Part shown: piece by piece, positions 1,204-4,933 of the stretch | Numbering within the stretch: the stretch's first letter is position 1 | Layout of the letters: each line of letters begins with the position of its first letter | IMG/VR virus record: IMGVR_UViG_3300037486_000387 | Coordinates: 1 to 52,376 of that record | DNA length: 52,376 nucleotides | Direction: 5' to 3' (one strand) | Origin: a virus | The notes under the pieces: model-generated | The model's input: the letters and a program-made list of their open reading frames with translations, nothing else | The model's database searches: none | What the model was told of the DNA's origin: nothing | Made by a program: the position numbers and the translations under genes

Positions 1204-2273
1204 ACAGAAAAGTTGTTACAACTTCAAATCCAACGTTGTACATGACTAGGCTTGATCTTAACCCTGAAAACAAAAGCTCTTTTAGAACAACAGGAGAAGT
1301 TGAAAATAATCCGACACTCATTGAAAATCGTGTATGGGGACAGCGTCGCCAAGATAAAGGGGATATATATTTTCCTAAAGAAAATATTCAAGCAAGAGGA
1401 GAAGTAACTGCTGCAGACTTGTATACTAAGTTACGAGATTATGGTTTTAATCCTGAACCTTTAGCTGATGTGAATCGACCAGATAAATATTTTATGAACT
1501 TAGCTAATCGTTTAGCAACTGTTGAAGGAACGCCAGGACGCCCAGCACCAATAAATCAAGTGTTGCAAAATATAGCTACACCTGTACCTGCTTTAGGTGT
1601 TTCTGAAAGAGAGCGTGGCTCTATACCAATTTTAAAAGAGTTTGATCCATTAAACGCAACAGCTGAGCAAAGAACAAAAGCTGGAATTAACAAAATTTTT
1701 AACAATTCAATGGATCCAAATTTAAACTCTGATTTTACATGGGACCACGTAAAGGTTGGAAACAGAGAAACTTTATTAACTATTCCAGAAGGTTTATCTA
1801 GAGAACCGTCTACATATGCAGGCCGTGGTTTCAGGAACATTAGCCCATTAAAATCAGGTGCTTTTGCTGCAGGAGCTTTTTATAGTCCAGAAATTTTTGA
1901 AGACCTAGAAAAAGGACGTTATGACTCTGCTGTAGCAAAAGCAGGCGCCGCTGCAACAACAGGCGCATTGATGGAAGGGGCAGTTAGAACTGGAGTTGTT
2001 AAAGCTGCTCAAGCTGGAATTGCTGTTCCAGCGCGTGCTTTAGCTGTTGCTAATCCTATTGTTTCCGCGATTACAACAGCAACTTTAGCTCCTCGTTCTT
2101 CCAGAGTAACTCCTGCTGTTGTTGCTGCTGAAAAAAAAGCTATTGAAGCGCAGTTCCAAAGAGCAGAGGCTGCTCGAAAACGTGGTGGCAAATGGAAGTT
2201 TCCAACACCTTTTGGCCAAGTAACAATTCCTGAACTAGGCTTGTCCGAAGCTGGTGGTTTGTTTTTCCGTTAA
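1155..2273 (+). pseudogene. C-terminal part of the frameshifted virion-type protein
   Basis: This is the continuation of the 676-1203 frame. The nominal start at 1155 is a TTG without a ribosome-binding site, so independent translation is unlikely. The protein contains SFRTTGEVENN and a long Ala/Val/Thr-rich segment (about residues 255-320) resembling the hydrophobic helices of other virion-cluster proteins here, then a Lys/Arg-rich stretch and the C-terminus GGLFFR. The stop codon sits in a TTAA shared with the stop of the convergent HNH gene. Function is unknown; a structural or ejection protein is inferred from composition only. Confidence 0.5.
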
Positions 2274-2524
2274 TCTACCCAGTGCTCAAGCCTGTGGCAA
2301 TTACAACATAGTGGTATACATTTCTTGATTTCTTTTTGGATGCGCTCCCAAGCATATCCATGATTAACCATTGAAGATATGTTTAAATCTTTATCGCCAA
2401 GGTGATGAAATTCAAGGACACGATGATCGGACAACTCACAATGATCACAACGTAAAGTCTTTTTATACGCAAGTAACGATTGACGATTTCGTTCAATACG
2501 TTTTCGTGCGTGTGTCCAGGTCAT
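2270..2524 (-). CDS. Free-standing HNH endonuclease
   Basis: The 84-aa protein has a compact HNH fold: zinc knuckle Cys26-x2-Cys29 (CDHC), the FHH pair at 39-41 that carries the catalytic histidine, and the second knuckle CCNCHRLEH at 73-81. Such small HNH proteins nick or cut DNA and often act as homing endonucleases in phages. It is convergent with the frameshifted gene, and their stops overlap in a TTAA (2270-2273). Its own start lies six bases from the tRNA-like element at 2530, which suggests insertion into the RNA cluster. Confidence 0.75.
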   Translation of the reverse strand: MTWTHARKRIERNRQSLLAYKKTLRCDHCELSDHRVLEFHHLGDKDLNISSMVNHGYAWERIQKEIKKCIPLCCNCHRLEHWVD

Positions 2525-2529
2525 TTAAT

Positions 2530-2600
2530 CTGCTGTACTGGAATCGAACCAGCTTTCTAATTCCCTTGTCGGGATGTCCTTACCAATAGACTACCAGCAG
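2530..2600 (-). tRNA. tRNA-like element 1 (abnormal anticodon arm)
   Basis: Read on the minus strand this 71-nt element has a 7-position acceptor stem with 6 pairs (CTGCTGG with ACAGCAG), the TA linker, a D-arm GTC...GAC with TATTGGTAAG in the loop, and a perfect T-arm with loop TTCGATT. The hairpin in the anticodon position is TCCC-GACAA-GGGA, giving a 5-nt loop with no T33, so no anticodon can be assigned. CCA is not encoded. It may be a degenerate tRNA or a tRNA mimic. Confidence 0.6.
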
Positions 2601-2875: not shown

Positions 2876-3235
2876 ATGAACACATACAAGCTCACATTAA
2901 GCCAACTAAAAATACCAGGAGTAAAAATTCTTAAGAGCTTAGTGGCAGGACCAAAGCCATATGATTACAACAAGCTTACTTATTGCCATTTTAAAAACTC
3001 GGATGATTATTACGCATTCAAATTTAACTTAAATCTACATGACATACTTGCGGAAATTTTTGTAGGATCAGAAATTCTAGAAGATGAAGAATACACTATG
3101 GGTTGGAAAGGTTTGACAGATAAAGAAAAAATTATCTATGGCAATTTTGCAAATATTGTATTTTTGTTGAAGCAGGACATCGCAAGCTTACAAGAAGAAA
3201 TATACGCCCTCACTGAAAGACTGGACAACATTTAG
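2876..3235 (+). CDS. Hypothetical protein, 119 aa
   Basis: An ATG-started frame lies between the structured RNA and the tRNA-like cluster. The protein is Lys/Tyr/Asn-rich and ends in an amphipathic, probably helical tail (NIVFLLKQDIASLQEEIYAL). I recognise no domain. Its stop at 3233-3235 is immediately followed by the 3' end of tRNA-like element 2 on the opposite strand. Its lower GC than the flanking RNA elements is typical of a late-acquired accessory gene, but that is inference. Confidence 0.55.
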   Translation: MNTYKLTLSQLKIPGVKILKSLVAGPKPYDYNKLTYCHFKNSDDYYAFKFNLNLHDILAEIFVGSEILEDEEYTMGWKGLTDKEKIIYGNFANIVFLLKQDIASLQEEIYALTERLDNI

Positions 3236-3310
3236 CACTTAGGAGTGATTCGAACACTCATCGTCCTGCAGCAGCAGTAACCGCCCTATCCAATTGGTTC
3301 GCACTGAGTG
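3236..3310 (-). tRNA. tRNA-like element 2 (abnormal anticodon arm)
   Basis: The 75-nt element has an acceptor stem CACTCAG/CTAAGTG with 6 of 7 pairs and a perfect T-arm GAGTG-TTCGAAT-CACTC. A D-like arm AACC...GGTT has a GG-containing loop. In the anticodon position there is CTGC-TGCT-GCAG, a 4-bp stem with a 4-nt loop. I found no 5-bp stem with a 7-nt loop and T33 in any register. CCA is not encoded. It abuts the stop of the plus-strand gene 2876-3235. Confidence 0.55.
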
Positions 3311-3318
3311 AATGTTTG

Positions 3319-3406
3319 GGGAGAAGGTGAACTTGAACCACCATTGCCAATGGACGGAATCGAACCGCCTCTGACGCCGACGCGCCCACCGCCAAGGTGC
3401 TCTCCC
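3319..3406 (-). tRNA. tRNA-like element 3 with two T-loop hairpins
   Basis: This 88-nt element has 7 of 7 acceptor pairs (GGGAGAG/TTCTCCC, one G-U) and a T-arm GGTGG-TTCAAGT-TCACC. Between them lie a D-like hairpin CACC-TTGGC-GGTG, a hairpin GGCGC-GTCG-GCGTC with a 4-nt loop, and a hairpin GGCGG-TTCGATT-CCGTC whose loop fits the T-loop consensus, then a small ATT-GGC-AAT hairpin. Read as a class II tRNA, the TTCGATT loop would be an anticodon loop with CGA (Ser), but 30 nt would then separate it from the acceptor, including an extra hairpin. Element 4 has the same layout. Confidence 0.55.
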
Positions 3407-3440
3407 AGTGTTGTTCCAGCTTACCAGAAGATCAATGAAG

Positions 3441-3528
3441 GGAAGGCGCAGGACTCGAACCTGCCTTGACCTTACGGAATTGAACCGTTCCCCGCCGTCG
3501 CGAGCCGCACCGTTTGCGGATACCTTCC
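3441..3528 (-). tRNA. tRNA-like element 4 with two T-loop hairpins
   Basis: It is again 88 nt, with 7 of 7 acceptor pairs (GGAAGGT/GCCTTCC) and a perfect T-arm GCAGG-TTCGAGT-CCTGC. The interior holds a D-like hairpin CCGC-AAACGGT-GCGG, a hairpin CTCGC-GACG-GCGGG with a 4-nt loop, and ACGG-TTCAATT-CCGT with a T-loop-like sequence. If TTCAATT is an anticodon loop it would read CAA (Leu), but the following AAGGTCAAG forms no long variable arm as tRNA-Leu needs. Sequence differs from element 3 while the architecture is kept. Confidence 0.55.
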
Positions 3529-3569
3529 AGTGACCCCCAGGTTTGAGCATTGTTAAGAGGCTTAGGGGG

Positions 3570-3698: not shown

Positions 3699-3866
3699 TT
3701 ACTTCTTCTTAGCAGCAGCCTCTTTCTTTTTGGCGATCATCTCTTTGAACTTGTCACGAGCAGTTGCTTGAGCATCACTGACACCAGCCTTGCCCTTGGG
3801 GGGAACTGGCTTGCCTTTAGGTGGTACAGCTTTACCTTTGGCAACGGGGGGTTTCTTGGCAGCCAT
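3699..3866 (-). CDS. Small Lys/Pro/Ala-rich basic protein
   Basis: A 55-aa protein starting MAAKKPPVAKGK contains two copies of PPKGKPV-like text and ends KKKEAAAKKK. An in-frame ATG at 3914 would add 16 residues; neither start has a clear ribosome-binding site. The repeated Pro-Lys-Gly text and strong positive charge suggest a nucleic-acid-binding or DNA-condensing peptide, by composition only. Similar basic mini-proteins occur at 41065, 38479, 48306 and 22335. Confidence 0.5.
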   Translation of the reverse strand: MAAKKPPVAKGKAVPPKGKPVPPKGKAGVSDAQATARDKFKEMIAKKKEAAAKKK

Positions 3867-3938
3867 GATATCTAATGGATGTTTAAGATCATCTTTATTA
3901 TTATACAGTTTCATTTGGTGTTTTAATACTACTATTGG

Positions 3939-4316
3939 TTAATGACGATGACCTTCGTGGGCTTTATGGAATTTTTCCATCAGGTCTTCCATGTGCTCCA
4001 GGGATTCGAGCCGCATTAAGATATCTGAAATGGTGTTGATCGTGATTGGGTGTTCGGCGCGAGCAGCAAATGCCAACGCATCACGTAGGCAATTGGTGGC
4101 ACCAAGGATGGATTCCTTGACTTGATTTGAAAGTGCCATTTCAGAACGTAGGCAATTGGTGGCACCAAGGATGGATTCCTTGACTTGATTTGAAAGTGCC
4201 ATTTCAGAACGTAGGCAATTGGTGGCACCAAGGATGGATTCCTTGGCTTGATTTGAAAGTGCCATTTCAGATTGTTTTGGTGCTCTCAGTATAGGGCCTG
4301 CAATAAACATGTGCAT
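3939..4316 (-). CDS. Protein with three tandem 21-aa repeats
   Basis: The frame encodes about 125 aa (MHMFIAGPILRAPK...). Three near-identical 21-residue units, each SEMALSNQ(A/V)KESILGATNCLR, are followed by a non-repeated tail rich in His, Glu and Lys (HPITINTISDILMRLESLEH...HEGHRH). The repeats look amphipathic and may stack as helices. A longer frame to 4361 would overlap the methyltransferase; the internal ATG at 4316 avoids this. The tail is probably the ancestral domain and the repeats a recent expansion. Function is unknown. Confidence 0.5.
   Translation of the reverse strand: MHMFIAGPILRAPKQSEMALSNQAKESILGATNCLRSEMALSNQVKESILGATNCLRSEMALSNQVKESILGATNCLRDALAFAARAEHPITINTISDILMRLESLEHMEDLMEKFHKAHEGHRH
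4085..4271 (-). repeat. 63-bp tandem repeat, three copies
   Basis: Units begin at 4085, 4148 and 4211 with a period of exactly 63 bp (21 codons). The copies are almost identical; the third has one visible change (ggcttg for gacttg) and diverges in its last bases. Because 63 is a multiple of three the repeat stays in frame. The near identity implies recent expansion. Confidence 0.9.
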
Positions 4317-4330
4317 ACTGTGGACTACGG

Positions 4331-4933
4331 TTATTCTGGCACGGCTTCTTTCCAGATCCAACCTACTTGATAACCGTCAAGGTAGGGTTCGATCCCCAGG
4401 GATTCCATTAGTTCATAGATGAGACGCCCTTTACCAATACGTTTTCCAGCTGGTGTTACAAGATTGTCATCCACTACGATCAACGTGCCATCTTTGATGC
4501 AGTTCTTGGCTGCGAACAACTCCTTTAGGTGGTGTGCAGCAGGTGCCCAGTCGTTATTCCAATCGTCGATATTGTAGGAATCTAGGTAGAGCAGATCAAT
4601 TTTACCTTCGAGAGTACCAAGGAATTCAACTGAATCTGATTCAATAACCTCAGTGAACCACGTATTTTTTTCTGCGAGCTTGCAGGCGACAGGATCAATG
4701 TCAACGGAAAGAACGTCGCCGCCGTGATAATCAACAAAGCTATCAAAGAGAAGAGTAGAGCAGCCGTCACCTTCGTAATTGTTTTCTTCACGGTAAGTAC
4801 CAGTCTCGACAATGACAGGATTTTTAACGGTGGTTAGGTATTCAAATATTTTTTTGAAACCATCCCTGCGATCGTTAAGACGTGGTTGAATCTCTTGGAA
4901 GTATTCAGCCCAAGTTTCGTGATAATCTTTCAT
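4331..4933 (-). CDS. Class I SAM-dependent methyltransferase
   Basis: The 200-aa protein has a Rossmann-type motif I, VETGTYREE (42-50), followed by GDGCSTLLFDSF and the acidic motif II VLSVDID (74-80) that would bind the SAM ribose. A later LLYLDSYNID matches motif IV of small-molecule or sugar O-methyltransferases of the Methyltransf_24/FkbM type. The substrate is not predictable; glycan or nucleotide modification fits a phage that also encodes a glycosyltransferase. It lies just downstream of the 50-aa gene at 4946-5098 in the same direction. Confidence 0.65.
   Translation of the reverse strand: MKDYHETWAEYFQEIQPRLNDRRDGFKKIFEYLTTVKNPVIVETGTYREENNYEGDGCSTLLFDSFVDYHGGDVLSVDIDPVACKLAEKNTWFTEVIESDSVEFLGTLEGKIDLLYLDSYNIDDWNNDWAPAAHHLKELFAAKNCIKDGTLIVVDDNLVTPAGKRIGKGRLIYELMESLGIEPYLDGYQVGWIWKEAVPE

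Follow-up and report, generated by a model that had tools for sequence, protein, structure and literature searches.

The window, by which is meant the whole 52,376-nucleotide stretch of DNA analysed here, belongs to a cyanobacterial phage and carries two copies of a tRNA-like RNA, E1 and E2, in which a second hairpin capped by a T-loop precedes the true T-arm. This double-T-arm element is almost certainly a real, conserved class of phage RNA; it looks like an undescribed viral tRNA mimic, since dozens of viral sequences retain its structure and Rfam has no family for it. Judged from sequence comparison, it is probably a five-armed mimic without an anticodon, composed of an acceptor, a D-like arm, a short GACG-type hairpin, the additional T-loop hairpin (T1) and the true T-arm (T2), plus a linker bearing GG. 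The reading favoured here, on balance, is that these elements are non-decoding tRNA mimics that are excised by host tRNA-processing enzymes and may then act as mimics of the tRNA elbow.

Architecture of the tRNA-Like Array

E1 and E2 lie on the minus strand and fold in the order of helices that a first-pass annotation of the same DNA had described without assigning a strand. That annotation also missed the adjoining abiF RNA and the wide spread of the RNA class; the two elements that it reported are real, but the array holds two more that lack an anticodon, E3 and E5 (3310-3236 and 2600-2529). In 5' to 3' order on the minus strand, the features are as follows.

3699-3914, minus strand: small basic ORF preceding the array, found at the same place in Synechococcus phage S-EIVl
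3533-3569, minus strand: abiF RNA, the AbiF antitoxin RNA motif in a phage version (55.3 bits with Rfam RF03085, whose gathering score is 37)
3529-3532, minus strand: 4-nt spacer CACT between the abiF RNA and the 5' end of E2
3528-3441, minus strand: E2, double-T-arm tRNA-like RNA (match to covariance model R1, described below, and agreeing MFE fold)
3528-3522/3447-3441, 3519-3505 and 3504-3491, minus strand: acceptor, D-like arm and GACG hairpin of E2
3488-3474, 3473-3465 and 3464-3448, minus strand: T1 hairpin, GG linker and T-arm T2 of E2
3406-3319, minus strand: E1, double-T-arm tRNA-like RNA (homologues, and 101.3 bits with R1, E1 being among that model's 16 sequences)
3406-3400/3325-3319, 3399-3387 and 3386-3373, minus strand: acceptor, D-like arm and GTCG hairpin of E1
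3369-3353, 3352-3343 and 3342-3326, minus strand: T1, linker and T2 of E1
3236-3310, minus strand: E3, tRNA-like, with acceptor CACTCAG/CTAAGTG (6/7 paired) and T-arm GAGTG-TTCGAAT-CACTC
2529-2600, minus strand: E5, tRNA-like, with a GACAA pentaloop in the place of the anticodon loop (tRNA-??? in ARAGORN; 33 bits with the Rfam tRNA model, using permissive filters on the array region)
2270-2524, minus strand: small HNH-type ORF at the array end, its type taken from motif reading only, also present in S-EIVl

The abiF RNA is the only Rfam match at gathering score across the whole window. The 34-nt spacer between E2 and E1 ends in CACT, the same letters that stand before E2, and the region between E3 and E5 contains a plus-strand ORF (2876-3235) that sits within the tRNA-like array in the opposite orientation. 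Elsewhere in the window, a minus-strand ORF at 6745-6032 was judged by eye to encode a GIY-YIG-like homing endonuclease, and another (3939-4361, minus) contains three near-identical in-frame repeats (ALSNQ.KESILGATNCLRSE), perhaps from a recent tandem duplication.

The acceptor of E2 (GGAAGGT/GCCTTCC) is paired at 7/7 positions, one of them GU, and is followed by a D-like hairpin (CCGC-AAACGGT-GCGG), a short hairpin (CTCGC-GACG-GCGGG), a T1 of 4 bp rather than 5 (ACGG-TTCAATT-CCGT), the linker AAGGTCAAG and T2 (GCAGG-TTCGAGT-CCTGC), a structure to which the MFE fold of E2 closely corresponds (-36 kcal/mol, z -2.0). E1 repeats this layout with other letters: acceptor GGGAGAG/TTCTCCC, D-like hairpin CACC-TTGGC-GGTG, short hairpin GGCGC-GTCG-GCGTC, T1 GGCGG-TTCGATT-CCGTC, linker CATTGGCAAT and T2 GGTGG-TTCAAGT-TCACC. 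Predicted as a single sequence, E1 has an MFE structure that differs from the described fold, and RNAalifold recovered that fold exactly from 16 relatives when no structure was supplied. CCA is encoded at neither element. A scan of the window for an acceptor with a T-arm returned four real matches under loose criteria against 0.55 expected in shuffles, all within the array: E2, E3, E5 and a spurious inner-T-arm pairing inside E1, the outer T-arm of which lies outside the T-loop consensus of the scan. Under strict criteria, E2 was the sole pass (one match against 0.0 in shuffles).

The two smaller elements have relatives of their own. The central arm of E3 carries a 4-nt loop where an anticodon loop would be, and among at least 10 further full-length distinct homologues it shows paired changes (GTT/GAC, GCT/AGC, GTT/AAC). 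The E5 type comprises at least 25 distinct sequences, including those of S-PM2, S-RIM8 and S-CREM1, with a covarying 3-bp stem (CCC/GGG, GCA/TGC, GTG/CAC, GCG/CGC, CCA/TGG); relatives lie at L005:2998-3069 and L006:2498-2569, and this anticodon-less RNA is unannotated in S-PM2 and S-RIM8.

A Conserved Class of Phage RNAs

When viral contigs were first scanned for two T-arm motifs 9-25 nt apart, many stretches among the matches listed read as a full E1-like structure, in which the acceptor is followed by a D-like hairpin whose loop contains GG, a hairpin that usually closes on GACG, a T-loop hairpin, a linker bearing GG ahead of AA, the T-arm and the returning acceptor strand. A second scan, which fixed the linker and T-arm and left T1 free, yielded at least 43 stretches, in almost all of which the T1 hairpin is intact and its loop reads TTCGATT. 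The covariance model R1, built from 16 E1 relatives with E1 included and E2 excluded, recovers the left-out E2 at 47.8 bits (E about 1e-7, from 1.6e-7 to 1e-8), ordinary tRNAs in R1 searches scoring mostly below 36 bits. It also matches at least about 35 other distinct sequences from viral contigs and the phage isolates S-CREM1 and B23; identity to E1 is 92% in L087/L089 and, over the full length, 84% in S-CREM1.

In the 16-sequence alignment of R1, 99.8% of base-pair cells are paired and 14 of the 26 pairs show a double compensatory change, a number equalled in 0/500 shuffles. The extended alignment holds at least 43 members (38 distinct) with 98.1% paired cells, and was fitted to the model structure, towards which alignment by covariance model leans. 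Among the 38 distinct members, double changes occur at 23/26 pairs, supporting all five helices; they amount to 225 cells, where shuffles give 43 and sliding of the partners gives 19-44. The T1 helix itself has double changes at four of its five pairs; for many loci, the search patterns constrained the T-loops and, in part of the sample, the inner two pairs of T1, leaving the outer three T1 pairs, the D-like helix, the GACG helix and the acceptor free throughout. The first-pass annotation had proposed that the fold is selected and that covariation be sought in related phages; both suggestions are borne out, as the homologues keep the second T-like hairpin with compensatory changes.

The T1 loop reads TTCRATT in 37/38 distinct members (TTCGATT in 33, TTCAATT in four; the remaining one is TTTGATT), and the linker GG is present in 38/38. 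The discriminator base may be A, C, T or G, and members have no usable anticodon. Rfam 15 contains no family matching the element, and a literature search conducted without subscription journals found no published account of the layout, leaving an earlier description possible. With regard to a cellular origin, the E1-type linker and T2 pattern produced one match in 84,980 bacterial and archaeal genomes, which is without any of the structure and reads as coding sequence.

Genomic Settings

Class members occur in several settings. Many are found in tRNA arrays, 1-5 nt from true tRNAs and with up to 26 ARAGORN tRNAs within 2.5 kb. The member in S-CREM1 occupies the stretch left unannotated between tRNA-Phe and tRNA-Ile, in a genome annotated with tRNAscan-SE and Rfam for which 24 tRNAs and one abiF sRNA were reported (PMC9964418). 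Others begin 4 nt after an abiF RNA (E2 of the window, L087/L089 and L295), and some divergent members have no recognised tRNA, abiF or tmRNA neighbour. In three viral contigs, the element constitutes the intervening segment of a viral permuted tmRNA, between CCA and the 5' domain (RF04321, 96-160 bits); these permuted tmRNA genes lie at L304:5815-6212, L277:1149-1539 and L288:4682-4980. One permuted tmRNA is reported to contain a tRNA-Ala gene in its intervening sequence (PMC11915505), likewise a tRNA-like gene in such a segment, but that case is an intact tRNA, reported as unique, whereas the segment found here is a double-T-arm element.

The association with abiF RNA extends beyond the class. 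Among 101 non-redundant phage abiF sites, picked regardless of T-arms, an element with acceptor and T-arm begins +3 to +5 after the abiF RNA in 27 (at exactly +4 in 20), compared with 0.14% of random positions. In some phages this is a true tRNA (tRNA-Gly in S-CREM1, tRNA-Ala in S-SZBM1), and in others an anticodon-less form, be it E5-like with a GACAA pentaloop, E3-like with a 4-nt loop or a mini-form of 47 nt. The acceptor/T-arm half, which is the part recognised by RNase P, is kept in these abiF-linked elements while the remainder varies, down to 47 nt. Copies of the class linked to abiF are themselves partly relaxed, E1 of the window having a GTCG loop and L087 a T1 stem that is disturbed; this would fit processing as their main job there.

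In C. difficile, abiF RNA acts in trans, binding the AbiF toxin directly and so neutralising it (PMC12373285). No AbiF toxin (Abi_2, PF07751) was found in 15 phage records, some of them fragments, and the phage abiF copies may thus act in trans on a host toxin. Such toxin-less phage abiF RNAs lie at 3533-3569 (minus) in the window, L003:2633-2669 and L004:3061-3097; S-EIVl has an apparent abiF RNA with a loop insertion of ~70 nt (L002 ~2848-2947).

Proposed Mechanism and Rival Functions

The element would be co-transcribed with its neighbours and then excised by RNase P and the 3' tRNA-processing enzymes of the host, the acceptor/T-arm half being the part that these enzymes would read. Such tRNA-type processing of its ends is likely, and the placement of members near RNase P substrates (true tRNAs, abiF RNA and permuted tmRNA) is consistent with cleavage by RNase P. 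Downstream of an abiF RNA, the same cut would also define where the antitoxin RNA ends at its 3' side. Once free, the element may mimic the tRNA elbow and thereby bind or occupy some tRNA-recognising factor of the host, with no part in decoding. This action in trans is proposed tentatively, as the most likely further step, since processing does not require the conservation seen in the D-loop, GACG loop, T1 and linker.

In a tRNA, G18 and G19 of the D-loop dock at positions 55 and 56 of the T-loop. Class members have two T-loops and two GG sites, one in the D-like loop and one in the linker, which raises the suggestion of two elbow-like contacts, in which the GG of the D-loop would dock in T1 and that of the linker in T2. 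In the alignment, phage B23 combines a TGATA D-loop with a TTTGATT T1 loop, and its sister L315 combines TGGGCAG with TTCGATT; read from these letters, the difference would be a double change from G19-C56 to the A-U type, as expected for D-loop/T1 pairing, and is suggestive of it. If the D-loop pairs with T1, the linker GG is left for T2. A search for T1 loops with U56 by R1 returned no further class member in 80 of 120 loci, and a descriptor scan of all 120 found only a different double-T-arm layout, so that the D-loop/T1 covariation rests on the one event in B23. The fullest form of the proposal is more conjectural still, yet conceivable: these would be double-elbow RNAs forming a new non-coding class in phages, each T-loop docked by its own GG, spread across different phages in tRNA arrays, abiF cassettes and permuted tmRNA genes, and acting on the elbow-binding machinery of the host.

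A less likely reading is that the elements are processing punctuation only, that is, RNase P and RNase Z signals which free their neighbours (abiF RNA, two-piece tmRNA or downstream mRNA) in the manner of mascRNA, the released piece being idle. The constant 4-nt spacing after abiF RNA, the location between the CCA and 5' end of permuted tmRNA and the retention of only the top half in abiF-linked elements all agree with it. The class is also found, however, in arrays of tRNAs whose every neighbour is processed already; punctuation is unnecessary there, and processing alone thus does not explain the conservation. Nor does RNase P need the D-loop GG, the GACG loop, the T1 hairpin or the linker GG, all of which are conserved.

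That the element is instead a tRNA decoy against host anti-phage tRNA nucleases or toxins, forming with abiF RNA a cassette of counter-defence RNAs, appears improbable. The adjoining phage abiF RNA, the failure to find an AbiF toxin in the 15 phage records and the neutralisation in trans in C. difficile fit such a role, as does the proposal that phage tRNAs evade tRNA-targeting defences (PMC10264068), but the element has no anticodon loop, the usual cleavage site of such nucleases.

Relationship to tRNAs

The processed elbow mimic favoured here is very probably not a decoding tRNA. It shares with canonical tRNAs a 7-bp acceptor and a T-arm with a TTCRA loop, but a hairpin with a 4-nt loop occupies the place of the 5-bp stem and 7-nt loop of an anticodon arm. 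Class II tRNAs do not offer a better fit, as the extra hairpin stands before a GG linker of ~10 nt and there is no anticodon arm. ARAGORN called nothing at E1 or E2, its only call in the window being E5, without a valid anticodon, and both elements fell below threshold with the canonical tRNA model (RF00005) in cmscan. The earlier view that no standard tRNA class has this layout therefore stands, no ordinary cloverleaf having been found at either element by ARAGORN or the Rfam covariance models. The tRNA-Sec family (RF01852) was rejected as a candidate, at 18.7 bits for E2 and 23 bits for L280 against a gathering score of 47.

It is very hard to credit that the elements are unusual decoding tRNAs that carry an inserted hairpin and use T1 as the anticodon arm, so that E1 would read as Ser(CGA) and E2 as Leu(CAA). 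ARAGORN forces some members into tRNA-Ser(cga) and several array members adjoin true tRNA-Ser genes, but a U would stand at position 37, the invariant closing G-C belongs to a T-arm, no long variable arm lies next to the T-arm for SerRS or LeuRS, and the Rfam tRNA model gives no match. The loop, TTCRATT in 37/38 members, varies essentially at R57 alone, a change that T-loop grammar permits, so the supposed switch from Ser to Leu would fall precisely on that T-loop position. The T-loop grammar, absent variable arm and lack of a model match disfavour this reading. Decay of tRNA genes within an array, suggested by neighbouring phage tRNAs annotated as pseudo in the B23 record, can be dismissed, being refuted by covariation: 98% of base-pair cells are kept, the double-change cells are as numerous as given above and one architecture recurs in different phages.

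Comparison With Known RNAs

Among the closest parallels are mascRNA and menRNA, tRNA-like 3' ends of the MALAT1 and MEN beta lncRNAs, each likewise a non-decoding mimic directly 3' of a non-coding RNA. They are cut by RNase P, and by analogy the same would be expected of the phage element. The human mascRNA, however, has one T-arm, against five arms, a second T-loop hairpin among them, in the phage class; a match of E1 or E2 to the mascRNA family (RF01684) was rejected, scores being below threshold and far short of the gathering score. With the tRNA-like module of YrlA, a bacterial Y RNA, the element shares D- and T-loop-like elements in a bacterial non-coding RNA. YrlA is not known to have such an acceptor stem, and its family (RF02553) gave no Rfam match at the element. 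In RNase P, the T-box and the L1 stalk, two interdigitated T-loops deal with the tRNA elbow (PMC4810234); those are internal tRNA-binding modules, whereas the phage T-loops cap two hairpins of a tRNA-like cloverleaf. As for the abiF RNA family (RF03085), the RNA 4 nt upstream of E2 is a member, but E1 and E2 themselves are not.

Other Multi-T-Arm Layouts

Several other layouts were noticed in viral sequences. Apparent still larger RNAs of ~160 nt, with three consecutive T-arm modules, occur at L272:1520-1700+, L216:3480+ and L194:505+ and on the minus strand of L289, L209, L239 and L246; R1 does not match them as members, and Rfam gave no match for L289, L209, L239 and L194. In another tandem-T-arm layout, the arms are separated by TACGGTGGC and a conserved block, GTGGGGTG..GGTGCCCAGCC..GTAGCCGGA, lies downstream (L214, L218:3320+, L270 and L311:5795+). 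A tRNA-like form of 69-72 nt has a T-arm in the D-arm position, in the order acceptor, AGGG, T1, hairpin, T2 and acceptor (L449, L453, L419, L354, L364 and L233).

Implications for Phage tRNA Clusters

Because tRNA finders and Rfam miss the double-T-arm RNA, it has remained hidden in phage tRNA arrays annotated as ordinary, including that of the isolate S-CREM1. Phage tRNA clusters thus carry conserved, non-decoding tRNA mimics, a finding relevant to the long-standing puzzle of why tRNAs are found in phage genomes at all. Its proximity to abiF ties the class to an RNA antitoxin of the AbiF family, the proposed evolutionary source of Cas13, and provides a testable route by which a phage could free such an RNA using the tRNA enzymes of its host.
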